From: Parcubacteria group bacterium GW2011_GWC2_42_12
Lineage (GTDB): Bacteria > Patescibacteriota > Patescibacteriia > Patescibacteriales > GWC2-42-12
NCBI GenBank assembly: GCA_000997945.1
Contig: LCCP01000017.1
Location: 1-40,185, forward strand
Direction: 5' to 3'
Length of the DNA stretch: 40,185 nt
The notes under the pieces: model-generated
Told to the model about the DNA's origin: nothing
Databases searched by the model: none
The model's input: only the letters and a program-made list of their open reading frames with translations
Part shown: positions 6,703 through 12,638 of the stretch, piece after piece
Layout of the letters: each line of letters opens with the position of its first letter
Numbering within the stretch: position 1 is the stretch's first letter
Made by a program: the position numbers and the translations under genes

Positions 6703-7023
6703 TTAAAACGAGACAACTTTATCGCTTTCTTTTACTATTTCGTGTAAATCTTTCATGGTTGAAATAGGGCACATTTGCGAGCCTTCCGATTCGCGGCTCT
6801 TTAAACATGTACCGCAGGCAAAAATTTTTCCATTATTACTAAGAAATAATTTCGCCTGTTCTTTAATGTTAAATTTTTTGCTATTAAGAGCTTCATATTC
6901 TACTCCCTTTGCTAGCAAAAAGATTTTTACCAAATTACCTTCTTTGAGCGAAAAATTTGCGAATCGAAAAGCATTCCATACAGTTTCAGCGTCATTTGAG
7001 TAGATAATAATTCCTAGTTTCAT
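6703..7023 (-). CDS. DsrE/DsrF-like sulfur-relay family protein (leftmost possible cassette)
   Basis: MKLGIIIYSNDAETVWNAFRFANFSLKEGNLVKIFLLAKGVE...FACGTCLKSR is the DsrE fold pattern with CGTC. Confidence 0.75.
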   Translation of the reverse strand: MKLGIIIYSNDAETVWNAFRFANFSLKEGNLVKIFLLAKGVEYEALNSKKFNIKEQAKLFLSNNGKIFACGTCLKSRESEGSQMCPISTMKDLHEIVKESDKVVSF

Positions 7024-7152: not shown

Positions 7153-7180
7153 TTGACAACCCTGTCAAATCTGTTATACT
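7153..7180 (+). promoter_or_regulatory. sigma70-like promoter of ncRNA copy 1
   Basis: TTGACA (7153-7158), 16 nt spacer, TATACT (7175-7180). Confidence 0.75.
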
Positions 7181-7183
7181 GAT

Positions 7184-7391
7184 AATGTCGAATACGGATT
7201 CTACTGAACTCCCGAAGTCCGAGACCCTAAGGGGGATCGGGCTTTTTGTTTTGTAAAATTTATGATAAAATTTTTATGTGGAGTTTAAGGGGCTACCTCA
7301 CGGTGAGGAATCCGTATTCGACATTCGGATAGAGGGGTTCAATACCCCTTGGCTCCACGTCAGAAACCATCTCAAAAGCGAGGTGGTTTTT
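7184..7391 (+). ncRNA. Candidate structured RNA (array RNA) copy 1 with tRNA/tmRNA-like 3' domain
   Basis: AATGTCGAATACGGATTC (7184-7201) perfectly complements GAATCCGTATTCGACATT (7308-7325). T-arm-like AGGGG-TTCAATA-CCCCT (7333-7349), GTGGAG...CTCCAC (7278-7283 / 7353-7358), terminator at 7364-7391. Second copy at 9836-10042 has compensatory changes. Confidence 0.7.
7364..7391 (+). terminator. Intrinsic terminator of ncRNA copy 1
   Basis: AAACCATCTC-AAAAGC-GAGGTGGTTTTT. Confidence 0.75.
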
Positions 7392-7483
7392 GATTTGCCA
7401 AAAAATAAAATTAATTTTCAATAAACAGAAAAATTATAAATTTATTCTCATCTGCTCCGCCGGATACTCGTTGTTATATGATG

Positions 7484-7929
7484 TAAAAAACTAATAAATT
7501 ATTTAACTCTCAAAAAATCCCAAAAGTCGTATAGCACTATGCCAATATAAAGTAATATAACGAATCCAAAAATTATAGCATAGAAAGAGGGATAAATTAT
7601 TTTAACTGCCAGCACAATACTTTCAAGCAGTAATGCTATTAGTAGTATAAAAGTAAAAGTCGCACCATGTGAAAGCAGCTTTCCTGCCATTGAGTCAAGT
7701 TTGCTTTTTTCATAAGTAAAGGCAAAGTTTGCGAAACATACTGTTACAAGCAACATACTGATTATAAGAAGAAAGTCGCTTATTTGTCCCAGTCCAATTT
7801 GATTTATAGAGTTCGCAATAACAGGCCACAGGGAAGCTGCGATTATAACAATAATCGCGTTTTTTATTATATTTTTCTTAAAGGAATTTAATACCATAAT
7901 TTTTGTGGTTAAAATTTATTAGTTTTTTA
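7484..7929. repeat. Cassette-specific inverted repeat enclosing gene 7499-7897
   Basis: TAAAAAACTAATAAATT (7484-7500) versus AATTTATTAGTTTTTTA (7913-7929), perfect 17 bp. Confidence 0.75.
7499..7897 (-). CDS. Hypothetical multi-pass membrane protein (cassette gene)
   Basis: ORF with four hydrophobic segments (IIVIIAASLWPVI, FLLIISMLLVTVCFANF, FTFILLIALLLESIVLAV, YAIIFGFVILLYIGIVL). Confidence 0.6.
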   Translation of the reverse strand: MVLNSFKKNIIKNAIIVIIAASLWPVIANSINQIGLGQISDFLLIISMLLVTVCFANFAFTYEKSKLDSMAGKLLSHGATFTFILLIALLLESIVLAVKIIYPSFYAIIFGFVILLYIGIVLYDFWDFLRVK

Positions 7930-7930
7930 T

Positions 7931-8102
7931 TTCACATAATGGCTTCGGAATAAGCGAAGTGGCCGAAGGAATTTCGTAGCGGAGCGGAGAAATGCCGAAA
8001 GGCCATTTTGCGTATTCCGAGTTATGCCATTATGCCGAAAAGGAGCGAGCGACCCGAGCCGACCGCAGGAAGGCGAGGGGGAGCGAGCGATTTCGGCATA
8101 AC
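7931..8102. repeat. Long palindromic array repeat, copy 1
   Basis: TTCACATAATGGCTTCGGAATAAGCGAAGTGGCCGAAGG...TTATGCCGAAAAGGAGCGAGCGACCCGAGCC...GGAGCGAGCGATTTCGGCATAAC, repeated almost verbatim at 9557, 10697 and 11517. Confidence 0.93.
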
Positions 8103-8196
8103 GTATCGGCATATCTGATGTTTGCCGTAGCGTAGCGGAGGCAAATATGGGTAGAGGCTTTTGTAAAAAGCCGTAACCAGATATGCCTTGTTATAT
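8096..8196. other. attC-like palindromic site 2 (compact, 101 bp)
   Basis: GCATAAC (8096-8102)-GTAT-CGGCATATCTG (8107-8117) ... CAGATATGCC (8178-8187)-TT-GTTATAT (8190-8196). Inner hairpins TTTGCC..GGCAAA and GGCTTTTTAC-type. Confidence 0.7.
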
Positions 8197-9565
8197 GATG
8201 TATGCTTTTCTTTTTGTTCCGCCTTAGCGGAAACACTTTTCTGTAATGAACAAATTTTATTTTTGTCTTGGCGAGGGGCAGAGGGGCTTGGGGGTGAATG
8301 CCCCGAAGCTAAGACTCCTTATTCTGCGCGTTCAATGATGTTAACTATCCCATTATTTGCGTCCAACTCAACCAAATCGTCGCCTCGTAAAATTTTAGTA
8401 GCGTTTTTTGTGCCAACAATACATGGTTTTTTCATCTCTCTGGAAACAATAGCTGCATGGCAGATAATACCACCTTCATCCGTAACGAAAGCCGCAGCTT
8501 TAGTCATAGCTGGCATATAGGCTGGCGTGGTCATTGGAGAAACCAAAATGTCTCCCGGTGTTATTTTGTTTAATTGCTCTCGATTCATTACCACTTTTAC
8601 TTTACCCCGAGCTTGCCCAGGACTTGCCGAAAACCCTTTCAATTGAGTTGCGGTAGATAATATTTTCTTATCAATCAATTTATAACCGCGAACTTTTAAA
8701 ACAGTCGAAATTTCTTTCTTTGTAAACAACTGATTGGCGAAATAAGCACAACCGTCATTGCGTTTTTTAAACTCTGAAAAATTATATTTCTGTTTAGCTA
8801 TGACCGCTTTTTTTAATTCTTGAATAAGAAAAAATTTCATTAAATTTTTAGGCCAGCTTTTTTCTTTAGCAATCATGTGTAAATATTGGTATATCAGATC
8901 ACAAGCATCGTCAAAAAAAGTGTCGCCTTGGCGTAATTTAGTTGCTTTGTCTAAAATCTTTTTGGAAAATAATGATTTTTTTTCTGTTTTACCGCCATTT
9001 CATTCCAAGTCACGCACCAATAAGCCGGAATGAGGCCCGCCATGCCCTCTATAAATAAATTTTGGGTCTCTTTTATTTTATTGACTGCTTTTAGGCTTTT
9101 CACTGAGCTTATTGGTTGCACTTTTTCTTTCTTTAGCTTCTTGCCTATCTTGATATACCTATCAAATTCAGCTAAAAGACGCTTGGTGTTTTTGGGCTCT
9201 TTTGCCCAGCGTGATATGGCCTTAGGTAGTGTGTCAAAGAAAAGCTGAGTTGCGCGCCAACTTTCAACAGCGCCATTTTGAAAAATATAAATTGGTTCCG
9301 GAAATTTAACTTCAAAATCAAAAACTCTAGGTATAGAATCAGTAAAATATTTATACCATGCGGCAATCAAAATAAACGGAGCATCACGTGTCATGACTTT
9401 TTCGTATTTGATGATTTTTCTTGTCATATTAAAATCGTTTTCTGAGTGAGGTCACGAGCGAAGAAAACACCATATACACCCCTCTATAAAAATTAAAAAT
9501 AAAATTTGTCCATTATAGAAAAGTGTTAGGTATTAGCCGTAAAAAGAAAAGCATATTTCATATAA
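8191..9565. repeat. Cassette-specific inverted repeat enclosing the PEP-utilising-domain gene
   Basis: TTATATGATGTATGCTTTTCTTTTT (8191-8215) versus AAAAAGAAAAGCATATTTCATATAA (9541-9565), 23 of 25 positions complementary. Confidence 0.75.
8319..9427 (-). pseudogene. PEP-utilising enzyme mobile-domain protein, split by a frameshift at an 8-nt homopolymer
   Basis: ORF 8951-9427 and ORF 8319-8876 join in sense across T8 at 8976-8983: ...MAVKQK / KSLFSKKILDKATKLRQGDTFFDDACDLIYQYLHMIAKEKSWPK. GFSASPGQARGKVKVV...GDILVSPMTTPAYMPAMTKAAAFVTDEGGIICHAAIVSREMKKPCIVGT is the phosphohistidine domain. Confidence 0.75.
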
Positions 9566-9738
9566 TGGCTTCGGAATAAGCGAAGTGGCCGAAGGAATTT
9601 CGCAGCGGAGCGGAGAAATGCCGAAAGGCCATTTTGCGTATTCCGAGTTATGCGAAGTCGCGCCATTATGCCGAAAAGGAGCGAGCGACCCGAGCCGACC
9701 GCAGGAAGGCGAGGGGGAGCGAGCGATTTCGGCATAAC
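9557..9738. repeat. Long palindromic array repeat, copy 2
   Basis: Near-identical to 7931-8102, with extra GCGAAGTCGC between the two hairpins. Confidence 0.93.
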
Positions 9739-9804
9739 GTTTCGGCGTATCTGAAGTTTTAATGCTTTTTTATTTTTGTCTAATGTTAGATACTTTTTAA
9801 TCTA

Positions 9805-9832
9805 TTGACAAGCTGGCTTGTTGTGTTATACT
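9805..9832 (+). promoter_or_regulatory. sigma70-like promoter of ncRNA copy 2
   Basis: TTGACA (9805-9810), 16 nt spacer, TATACT (9827-9832). Confidence 0.75.
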
Positions 9833-9835
9833 AAT

Positions 9836-10042
9836 AATGTTAAGTGCGGAATCTGTTGAACTCCAAAGTCCGAAACCCTAACGGGGATCGGGCTTTTTGT
9901 TTTGTAAAATTTATGGTAAAATTTTTTTGTGGAGTTGAGGGGCCACCTCATGGTGAGGGTTCCGCACTTAACATTCGGAATTGAGGGGTTCGATACCCCT
10001 TGGCTCCACCTCAGAAACCATCTTAAAAGCGAGGTGGTTTTT
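9836..10042 (+). ncRNA. Candidate structured RNA (array RNA) copy 2
   Basis: ATGTTAAGTGCGGAATC (9837-9853) pairs with GGTTCCGCACTTAACAT (9958-9974). T-arm AGGGG-TTCGATA-CCCCT (9984-10000), GTGGAGTT (9929-9936) with GGCTCCAC (10002-10009), terminator AAACCATCTT-AAAAGC-GAGGTGGTTTTT. Confidence 0.7.
10015..10042 (+). terminator. Intrinsic terminator of ncRNA copy 2
   Basis: AAACCATCTTAAAAGCGAGGTGGTTTTT. Confidence 0.75.
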
Positions 10043-10098
10043 GATTTACCGTATTGAAAAATAAAAAAGCATTAAAATTTGCGTGAGCGAGCGTTAAG

Positions 10099-10415
10099 AA
10101 TAAAATTATTTTTTTATTTTCCCTAGTAATATATGATAACTTGTTCCAGTAGATATTAAGCTTGATGAATTATTTTTTTCCGTATGCAGAATTGTATATT
10201 CTCCAGAATTGAGTTTTTCACTAATTTTATTATTTTGATATTCATTAATTTTGTCACTAAATAATTCGTGTAGTTCAATGTCGTATATATTTCGATGTTT
10301 CCACCAGCCCTTAATAACAATAACAGATGTTATAGTTAAAGCTACAATTGAAAATAGCAGAGAAATTAGTTCCATGAGATTATTTTTGATAAATTGCATA
10401 AAAAATAATTTTATT
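10099..10415. repeat. Cassette-specific inverted repeat enclosing gene 10106-10399
   Basis: AATAAAATTATTTTTT (10099-10114) versus AAAAAATAATTTTATT (10400-10415), perfect 16 bp. Confidence 0.75.
10106..10399 (-). CDS. Hypothetical single-pass membrane protein (cassette gene)
   Basis: 97 aa ORF, N-terminal TM segment LMELISLLFSIVALTITSVIVIKGWW. Confidence 0.55.
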   Translation of the reverse strand: MQFIKNNLMELISLLFSIVALTITSVIVIKGWWKHRNIYDIELHELFSDKINEYQNNKISEKLNSGEYTILHTEKNNSSSLISTGTSYHILLGKIKK

Positions 10416-10440
10416 TAGCTCGCGAACCAGATACGCCGTG

Positions 10441-10677
10441 TTAGGCGATGTTATTAAACTTTTTATTACTTTCCTCTTCCTCTAACTTTTTGGCAACTTT
10501 TATTGCTACATGCGATCTTACGGTCATAAAATACCAAAAATACAGACCAGCAACTACAATTACAACTAATAATGTGTTAATTGTTACATCTTCAAAAGAA
10601 TATGATATTTTTGCAATAACTATTAGTAAAATCCATAACTTAGGAGTTAAAAATTGCCAAAAAAATCTAAAAAATAA
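10441..10677 (-). CDS. Hidden small membrane protein ORF without a standard start codon (not in ORF track)
   Basis: Minus strand reads LFFRFFWQFLTPKLWILLIVIAKISYSFEDVTINTLLVVIVVAGLYFWYFMTVRSHVAIKVAKKLEEEESNKKFNNIA*. The stop TAA lies inside the GTTAGGC core box. Confidence 0.5.
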   Translation of the reverse strand, partial: LFFRFFWQFLTPKLWILLIVIAKISYSFEDVTINTLLVVIVVAGLYFWYFMTVRSHVAIKVAKKLEEEESNKKFNNIA

Positions 10678-10696
10678 TTAAGAAATTTCTGGCTAT

Positions 10697-10869
10697 TTCA
10701 CATAATGGCTTCGGAATAAGCGAAGTGGCCGAAGGAATTTCGTAGCGGAGCGGAGAAATGCCGAAAGGCCATTTTGCGTATTCCGAGTTATGGCCATTAT
10801 GCCGAAAAGGAGCGAGCGACCCGAGCCGACCGCAGGAAGGCGAGGGGGAGCGAGCGATTTCGGCATAAC
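10697..10869. repeat. Long palindromic array repeat, copy 3
   Basis: Near-identical to copy 1; ends TTTCGGCATAAC. Confidence 0.93.
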
Positions 10870-11043
10870 GTATCGGCACATGCGAAGTTGCGCCGTGAAT
10901 TATTGAATTAAATGTTAATTATCGCCTATCTTGATTATATCACTAAACTTGCCATTTCGTCAGCGCAATTTGGGTTGAGGAAATTTTGCACTCCTTGAAA
11001 TATAATTGCGCAAAATTTCTGAACCGCATGTGCCGTGTTGTGC
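10863..11043. other. attC-like palindromic site 4 (181 bp)
   Basis: GCATAAC (10863-10869), CGGCACATGCG (10874-10884) ... CGCATGTGCCG (11025-11035), GTTGTGC (11037-11043). Inner hairpin GAAATTTTGC ... GCAAAATTTC. Confidence 0.7.
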
Positions 11044-11105
11044 GATGTTTTAAAAAACAAACATTCTTTATAAAAAAGAGCCTTTTTGAAATTTTTTGGC
11101 TGGGC

Positions 11106-11134
11106 TTGACAGGCCGTCTGTTTTCTGCTATACT
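11106..11134 (+). promoter_or_regulatory. Strong sigma70-like promoter
   Basis: TTGACA (11106-11111), 17 nt, TATACT (11129-11134); followed by a 5' UTR hairpin AACGC..GCGTT. Confidence 0.8.
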
Positions 11135-11193
11135 AATTTGAACGCTAATTTTGGCGTTGAATTGTTCCAAAAAACCACGAAGGAGGAAGTGCG

Positions 11194-11394
11194 ATGGAAG
11201 AGCTGACGATCGGAACTAAAGTGGTGTTGAATGTTGGTGGCAAAGAAAGTATCGCAAGAGTCACCGACAAAAACGGTACTATGATGGAGCTGACAACAGA
11301 GAGTGGCGAAACTTTGTTCATGGAGCTTCAGAAAGCAGGGGATGGTTGGGAATTGGTCCCCAACACCCGTATGGTGAAGATGACTACCCTGTAG
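11194..11394 (+). CDS. Hypothetical 66-aa protein (cassette gene)
   Basis: AGGAGG upstream of ATG at 11194, strong promoter, downstream hairpin terminator. MEELTIGTKVVLNVGGKESIARVTDKNGTMMELTTESGETLFMELQKAGDGWELVPNTRMVKMTTL. Confidence 0.75.
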   Translation: MEELTIGTKVVLNVGGKESIARVTDKNGTMMELTTESGETLFMELQKAGDGWELVPNTRMVKMTTL

Positions 11395-11423
11395 TACTTC
11401 ACCTACATCACATCTCGCCAATA

Positions 11424-11459
11424 GCTCGTTCAAGGATAAAAACCTTGCGGGCTTTTTTC
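11424..11459 (+). terminator. Putative intrinsic terminator after 11194-11394
   Basis: GCTCGTTCAAGG-ATAAAAA-CCTTGCGGGC-TTTTTT. Confidence 0.65.
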
Positions 11460-11516
11460 TTTTCCAAAAAAATTTCAAAAAGGCTCTATAAAAAGATAAA
11501 ATGTTTATTTTTTAAA

Positions 11517-11705
11517 ATTTCGTACAATGGCTTCGGAATAAGCGAAGTGGCCGAAGGAATTTCGCAGCGGAGCGGAGAAATGCCGAAAGGCCATTTTGCG
11601 TATTCCGAGTTATGCGAAGTCGCGCGAAGCCATTATGCCGAAAAGGAGCGAGCGACCCGAGCCGACCGCAGGAAGGCGAGGGGGAGCGAGCGATTTCGGC
11701 ATAAC
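11517..11705. repeat. Long palindromic array repeat, copy 4 (recombinase-proximal)
   Basis: Near-identical to the other copies; ends TTTCGGCATAAC at 11705. Confidence 0.93.
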
Positions 11706-11816
11706 TCTCTATTATACGAACAATTTTTTAGAATTTGCTTTAGTTTGTATATTATGCGAAATTATGATATTATTTATTTAAAATAATCTCGCTAATATTA
11801 TTATAGTTTAAAATCT

Positions 11817-12638
11817 ATGAAATTGGAAGAGCTTTTAAAAAGAATAGAAAACGAACTTAAACTTAGAAACTATAGCCGAAAAACTATTAAGAGCTATTTA
11901 ATTTGCCTGGCGGACTATTTTCGCTATATTAAAAATGTCGTAAAAGATCCTGATATCGGCCTGATTAAAAGATACCTTCTGGAAAAACAGGATAGGGGGC
12001 AGGCCTCGCAGACCATCAATCTTTATTTAAACGCCATAAAATATTTCTACCGAGAGATTTTTAAAAATAATGTTCCCCTGGATATTAAATTTGCCAAAAC
12101 GGCGAGCAAGTTGCCCGTCGTCTTGTCTAAGAAAGAAATAGAAAAAATAATTGATTCAATCAGCAACAAAAAACACATGCTACTTATCGCTCTCTCGTAT
12201 GGGGCGGGTTTTAGGGTAAGCGAAGCCATAAATTTAAAAATAAAAGATGTGAATTTGGCTGAATTAACCATTCATCTTAAGGGCGCTAAAGGTAATAAAG
12301 ACCGGCTAACGATTTTTCCCGAAAGAGTCAAGGCGGGGCTGGCTGAAATTATGGCCTTGCGCGATAAAAACGATTTTGTCTTTGCCAGTGAACGGGGCGG
12401 GCATTTAACCGAGCGGTCGGCGCAAATGGTATTTGAAAATGCTTTGAAAAGATGCCATATTAATAAAGAAGCCACTTTTCATTCCTTACGGCATAGTTTT
12501 GCCACGCATCTCTTAGAAAACGGCGTGGATGTGCGCTATGTTCAGGAACTCCTGGGCCATGCTAATATTAGGACTACGCAAATTTATACCAAAGTGACTA
12601 ATCCAAGTTTAAAAAAGATAAAGAGTCCGCTGGAATAA
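11817..12638 (+). CDS. Tyrosine recombinase/integrase, Xer/IntI-like
   Basis: SYGAGFRVSEAINLKIKDV, TFHSLRHSFATHLLENGVDVRYVQELLGHANIRTTQIYTKV contain the R...HxxR...H...Y catalytic set. No obvious IntI-specific insertion before the HSLRH box. Confidence 0.92.
   Translation: MKLEELLKRIENELKLRNYSRKTIKSYLICLADYFRYIKNVVKDPDIGLIKRYLLEKQDRGQASQTINLYLNAIKYFYREIFKNNVPLDIKFAKTASKLPVVLSKKEIEKIIDSISNKKHMLLIALSYGAGFRVSEAINLKIKDVNLAELTIHLKGAKGNKDRLTIFPERVKAGLAEIMALRDKNDFVFASERGGHLTERSAQMVFENALKRCHINKEATFHSLRHSFATHLLENGVDVRYVQELLGHANIRTTQIYTKVTNPSLKKIKSPLE

Follow-up and report, generated by a model that had tools for sequence, protein, structure and literature searches.

Long complementary arms at the cassette ends of an integron-like array in Patescibacteria

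The genome of Parcubacteria group bacterium GW2011_GWC2_42_12 (assembly GCA_000997945.1; 1.03 Mb in 48 contigs) carries an array of gene cassettes on contig LCCP01000017.1, and the whole stretch of 40,185 nucleotides (nt) analysed here is termed the window. Read on the minus strand, the region from 6.65 to 11.7 kb is an integron-like array adjoining a tyrosine recombinase gene (11817–12638), in the order divergent recombinase gene, attI-like site, then cassettes with folded sites between them. The initial annotation of this region had proposed that each cassette payload is enclosed by its own inverted repeat. We find that such private arms are real and extend well beyond the window. They adjoin the recombination core, from which they are separated by a fixed two-base mismatch. 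The reading that we favour, though with appreciable reservations, is that each pair of arms extends the R box of its cassette's attC site, forming a long bottom-strand hairpin in the excised circle. The matching ends would probably let a freed cassette fold into a hairpin usable by the recombinase.

Complementary arms in the window

All the arm pairs listed in the initial annotation are present in the sequence. The permutation check suggested there was carried out with 1000 dinucleotide-preserving shuffles of both flanks of each unit. Three cassettes have private arms, with all ends on the minus strand. In the cassette of open reading frame (ORF) 11194–11394, the 5′ end (S, 26 nt) lies at 11503–11528 and the 3′ end (E, ACATC-R″, 26 nt) at 11037–11062, with arms that run on to 11467 and 11097, respectively; the gapped pair of about 60 nt (11048–11097/11467–11516) was not equalled in any shuffle (z 9.0). 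The cassette with a PEP-utilising-domain gene has S at 9541–9566 and E at 8190–8215, with long arms reaching about 9495 and about 8264, the latter containing the mini-hairpin TTCCGC-TAAG-GCGGAA. Its arms (8191–8215/9541–9565) pair at 92% over 25 nt and extend to about 75 nt, again with no shuffle as good (z 14.6). For the cassette of ORF 7499–7897 (S at 7915–7940, E at 7473–7498), the arms at 7474–7500/7913–7939 pair at 89% over 27 nt, 17 of them perfect. Ten of the 1000 shuffles were as good (z 3.1). AT-rich flanks make this result marginal on shuffles alone, but the pairing begins precisely where it does in relatives.

Two further repeats were beyond chance (0/1000 shuffles each): the 24-nt pair around the second noncoding RNA unit, ncRNA2 (9754–9777/10057–10080; 96%, z 7.2), and the 16-nt pair around ORF 10106–10399 (10099–10114/10400–10415; z 4.9). 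Both lie between the L″ and L′ boxes of one oversized attC, the interior of which (9740–10439, minus strand) contains ncRNA2 and ORF 10106–10399 with one inverted repeat each, and they are therefore not cassette ends. The ncRNA1 unit and the ORF 10448 unit gave weak results (11 and 26 of 1000 shuffles as good, respectively), and the flank shuffle test detected no arms around the DsrE cassette at 6703–7023 (297/1000). The proposal that each payload is enclosed is therefore too strong as worded. In the ORF 10448 unit the S core (10695–10706, minus strand) is mismatched to the E core (10440–10451) and the arms are weak; the unit is likely chimeric.

A fixed mismatch in related arrays

We sampled the array side of recombinase homologues in 40 stretches of related genomes and 80 named genome contigs; L-numbers (e.g. 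L040) denote the loci compared. Homologues were found in 48 of 145 related genomes, and the nearest relatives of the recombinase lie in metagenome-assembled genomes (MAGs) of Patescibacteria such as Moranbacteria, Paceibacterota and Uhrbacteria. Integrase matches on viral contigs were distant and were left out of the analysis. The relatives are mostly fragmented MAGs in which many contigs end at the array, and the arm classes are related to each other, so that the counts below are not independent. Many related contigs (L056–L062 and similar) stop 100–300 bp upstream of the recombinase, as if arrays break assemblies.

Cassette starts were defined as S = GTTRNNYGAAA and cassette ends as E = [AT]CATC-RNNYAAC. 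The arms in relatives have a common layout: the R core (GTTNNNYGA), paired over nine bases; a fixed AA/TG mismatch (AA in the 5′ arm, TG in the 3′ arm); and some 15 further paired bases private to the cassette. A partner arm, in which the next 12 bases recur in inverse complement beside a downstream ...AAC, was found for 37 of the 106 S sites, compared with 4 of 2120 shuffled controls. In 56 neighbouring S–E pairs, most cognate arms score above nearly all non-cognate combinations. Where 37 S–E pairs were picked by core match alone, positions 1–9 were paired, 10–11 unpaired and pairing resumed from 12, with a drop at 27. At positions 13–26 the paired fraction was 0.68–0.97 with cognate ends and 0.24–0.57 with non-cognate ends, and a perfect run of at least 10 was present in 73% and 0.8%, respectively.

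Since the S and E expressions themselves force positions 10–11, the loci were rescanned without motifs, by comparing any 26-mer starting with GTT with any 26-mer ending in AAC within 9 kb and requiring at least 21 of 26 pairs. This produced 51 pairs, with a mismatch at position 10 in 40 and at position 11 in 46, and only 0–5 mismatches at the other positions up to 23. No such pairs were found in three-base-shuffled sequence, and none in non-Patescibacteria loci except for one long palindrome (L153).

The initial annotation had also noted that the core boxes pair in inverse complement, and they do. However, published attC sites already show cassette self-pairing over 9–11 nt (PMC2727003), and in a Vibrio superintegron control (L238, 22 cassettes) pairing covered 4–12 nt with nothing beyond, giving an arm score of 6.5 against 6.7 for non-cognate ends. 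Core complementarity is therefore the ordinary integron rule, and the statement that ordinary cassettes lack such repeats holds only for their length. What differs here is the extension of pairing beyond the fixed mismatch.

Long arms and concerted changes

Many large cassettes (0.5–7.5 kb) have arms of about 75 nt. Each long arm carries a mini-hairpin at the end of the 15-bp stem (base ∼26), mostly at positions 25–28 on the 5′ side and 13–15 nt from E on the 3′ side. The loops of these junction hairpins read TN(N)C on the top strand, equivalent to GN(N)A when read from the bottom, in 24 of the 34 unique examples, and the reverse polarity was never seen. Among background hairpins elsewhere in the arrays, 81 of 633 had TN(N)C on top and 35 the reverse. 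DNA loops of the form C(GNNA)G and C(GNA)G are unusually stable.

The homologous-array comparison proposed in the initial annotation bore out its expectation: private arms remain complementary while diverging, and in related arm classes 21 of the 36 paired columns changed in concert. Cognate pairing was 0.90, falling to 0.70 with partners shuffled. One paired site is C/C in L043, L046 and L073, A/A in L041 and A/C in L102.

For the long arms, 'payload-specific' is not strictly the right description. The same arm classes surround unrelated payloads in other genomes, and the 5′ and 3′ modules remain conserved where the enclosed genes differ. A cassette in L038 is related to the PEP-domain cassette and has the same arm class. 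At the cassette ends of L040, L043 and L102, further paired modules occur within the long arms, with AGAGGGG..GGTG plus a hairpin on the 5′ side and, on the 3′ side, hairpins with the loop TTCACCCCTNNCCCCTC complementary to the 5′ modules, sometimes in two copies per side.

Folding and a proposed mechanism

Using DNA parameters, the site in the excised circle had a mean folding energy of −52.2 kcal/mol for the bottom strand and −47.1 kcal/mol for the top, and the site as it stands in the array had −35.1 and −32.3 kcal/mol, respectively. The bottom strand was more stable in 15 of the 16 folded. The mismatch is T·T plus a G·T wobble on the bottom strand, which is milder than A·A plus A·C on the top. 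The predicted bottom-strand folds of the PEP cassette, L046 and L047 each have one long stem containing the R box, the distortion and a 15-bp stem, together with two mini-hairpins at a four-way junction. We take from these folds that the arms extend the R box, so that a free cassette would fold well and an inserted one less well.

A possible sequence of events is as follows. The cassette starts with GTTNNNYGA-AA-T and about 15 private bases, and ends with their inverse complement followed by ACATC-R″. Excision as a circle would bring the two ends together on either side of attC. The bottom strand could then form a hairpin with the L box and terminal structure inside, followed by the R box, the T·T/G·T distortion and the 15-bp private stem; in large cassettes it would add a four-way junction, two mini-hairpins and some 30 further base pairs. 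As happens in integrons, the folded strand would be recognised by the recombinase and the cassette inserted at attI. Once it is inserted, the payload would separate the arms and R″ would lie opposite the R′ of another cassette, making the array site weaker. The system might in this way be biased to capture and retention. Repeated units also speak for the scheme: an identical 244-bp unit occurs twice in one array (L117) with boundaries at G^TT, and a repeated 176-bp unit in L079 also ends at G^TT.

The suggestion in the initial annotation that cassettes move as large folded single strands fits the position of the arms beside the recombination core, the fixed mismatch, the covariation and the strand-specific mini-hairpin loops; the movement itself, the use of the folded strand by the recombinase and the retention bias are what we infer from sequence and folding.

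Several points weigh against the arms being an extended R box. About a quarter of the well-matched S–E pairs lack a run of at least 10, and some cassettes (DsrE and ORF 10448) lack convincing arms. Folding energies are estimates only, and for the 26-bp arms alone the bottom-minus-top difference is small (mean −0.67). The insert on which canonical IntI depends for folded attC is absent from the recombinase, and the recombination step is itself a model built on sequence and predicted folds. Finally, arms of at least 75 nt seem longer than an R box needs, and the long arm class may have some further role.

Alternative explanations

The strongest alternative, which we regard as improbable, is that the arms are kept alike mainly by copying: on a folded cassette strand, replication or mismatch repair would use one arm as the template for the other (quasi-palindrome correction), so that complementarity is an unselected by-product. 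Such copying would account for arms that remain complementary while diverging between cassettes, and the states A/A in L041, C/C in L043, L046 and L073 and mixed A/C in L102 are as expected of unfinished conversion as of compensation. By itself, however, it would remove both the AA/TG mismatch at positions 10–11 and the differences between the mini-hairpins at the same site of the two arms, and the constant arm length of about 26 nt would still need a reason. The related idea in the initial annotation, that a copying mechanism duplicates the ends in inverted orientation, does not on its own account for the persistent mismatch and the differing mini-hairpins, though it may act as a helper process.

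Pairing could instead act at the RNA level, the 5′ and 3′ untranslated regions of a cassette transcript protecting or regulating the message, since the arms flank the coding part in all cases and the hairpins and stems would form in RNA too. We consider this distinctly unlikely. The ORF 11194–11394 cassette has a strong promoter-like site (11106–11134) and a terminator-like stem (11431–11447) inside its arms, and its main transcript would therefore exclude them. The bottom-strand loops are mostly GNYA rather than the RNA-type GNRA, and the arms begin at a constant spacing from the recombination core. An Rfam scan of the array and its relatives gave no match for the arms; its only hits were an ordinary tRNA in L044 and weak tmRNA-like scores for the ncRNAs.

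The occurrence of the same arm families around unrelated multigene payloads in different genomes would also be expected of the terminal inverted repeats of separate transposons that lie in the array by chance, an explanation to which we give slightly less credence still. In that case the arms would not be expected to begin beside the R core with the same mismatch, nor the repeated unit of L117 to end at G^TT, and no transposase was recognised among the payload ORFs listed, in a search that was not systematic. Chance complementarity of AT-rich ends, for which the marginal arms of ORF 7499–7897 might speak, is ruled out as a general explanation by the cognate versus non-cognate comparisons, which control for composition and are decisive, and by the absence of pairs in shuffled sequence.

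Two other candidate roles were rejected. A hairpin and T-rich stretch of the kind expected of intrinsic terminators or insulators occurs in some class A arms and is absent from classes B and C, and a coding leader peptide (ATGGTGTTTTCTCCG...) has its frame broken in L045 and L047, where only the hairpin is retained.

Relation to known integrons

Like the cassettes of class 1 integrons and the Vibrio VCR, those described here have a divergent integrase, attI, R″-L″-L′-R′ sites with AAC/GTT ends, first bases complementary to their own R″ and units bounded by G^TT. The attI-like site TTCGTATAATAGAGAG (11705–11720, minus strand) precedes the first cassette, and its consensus TTCGNATAANAACNA^GTT is conserved in sequence ahead of the first cassette in 36 arrays. 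The attC architecture was found at 25 sites as AAC-A-L″(about 11)-GTT...AAC[AT]T-L′-spacer-GTT; the inner part of the PEP cassette site (8103–8189, minus strand) is AAC-A-AGGCATATCTG-GTT...AAC-AT-CAGATATGCC-GATAC-GTT. Compared with the core GTTRRRY/RYYYAAC, GTTAGGC fits, whereas GTTATAT, GTTAGCT and GTTGTAC do not, and the consensus here is GTTRNNY. Unlike in integron cassettes, self-pairing here covers at least 26 nt and includes the fixed two-base mismatch, the long arms have mini-hairpins and cassettes reach 7.5 kb. No extrahelical bases were found on the R″-L″ arm of the 25 attC sites; a two-base bulge is present on L′ instead.

The recombinase (273 amino acids, plus strand) matches PF00589 (E 2.7e-40). 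XerA is a chromosome-resolution recombinase. With the XerA/archaeal Xer model NF040815 the recombinase passes the family cut-off (224 bits against 220) and aligns end to end, and XerA types (PDB 4A8E, 5HXY) come next by structure after Vibrio cholerae IntI4/VchIntIA (PDB 2A3V), which of the solved structures fits the recombinase profile best (E 1.7e-61). Unlike XerA, the gene lies beside a cassette array with an attI-like site. Its alignment with IntI4 is split into two stretches, and the IntI-specific insert is absent from the recombinase: with TIGR02249 it scores 208 bits, below the cut-off of 265, and leaves model positions 182–234 unmatched. The IntI-specific domain near patch III, a criterion of PMC9668308, was found neither in the TIGR02249 alignment nor among 17 relatives, whose alignment of 273 columns has no insert. 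Archaeal integrons resemble the present arrays in being platforms outside the classical hosts with folded attC, but archaeal IntIs are reported to have the IntI-specific domain (PMC9668308). Since the recombinase has no IntI-specific domain and the L-box bulge sits on the opposite arm, we class the arrays as integron-like, a new variant, rather than as integrons proper.

Among the large cassettes, L040 has a type I restriction system, and DNA methylases are present in L036, L037 and L041; DNA methylase and restriction-type genes were noted in the large cassettes of L036, L037, L040, L041, L045 and L102. The arrays therefore seem to be defence-gene platforms in Patescibacteria. More speculatively, a Patescibacteria-wide integron-like system with an insert-less recombinase might move large multigene cassettes, including restriction-modification systems, as folded single strands, with long private arms that bear junctions acting as an integration-only switch and new payloads being loaded into conserved 5′/3′ arm frames. 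We found no description of this system in a search of the open-access literature, most subscription papers lying outside the reach of that search.

Open questions about integron cassettes include how they arise and what keeps them in arrays; covarying, mismatch-marked ends make both testable. The arrays offer natural variants of the folded recombination site paired with a different recombinase, and the arm signature can be used to locate cassette boundaries in uncultured bacteria.

Other features of the array

A shared block of ∼190 bp without payload, which starts GTTATGCC and ends CGAAGCCA, stands ahead of each of four payloads (7931–8109, 9557–9745, 10697–10876 and 11519–11705, minus strand). 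A search of the bacterium's own genome placed all four copies in the window array and found none elsewhere. The block looks like a payload-less cassette, and small repeated units similar to it also occur in L079 and L117.

The PEP-utilising-domain gene (8319–9427, minus strand) is broken into two frames, 8319–8876 and 8951–9427, and is perhaps a frameshifted gene.

Two homologous ncRNA units with a sigma-70-like promoter lie at 7153–7395 and 9803–10050 on the plus strand; their Rfam tmRNA score is below threshold. The first RNA has a 5′ end (AATGTCGAATACGGATTC) with 18 nt of complementarity to a stem-loop in the second, tRNA-like RNA, which has an acceptor (GTGGAGT/GGCTCCAC) and a T-arm. This complementarity is retained in the second copy despite several changes.

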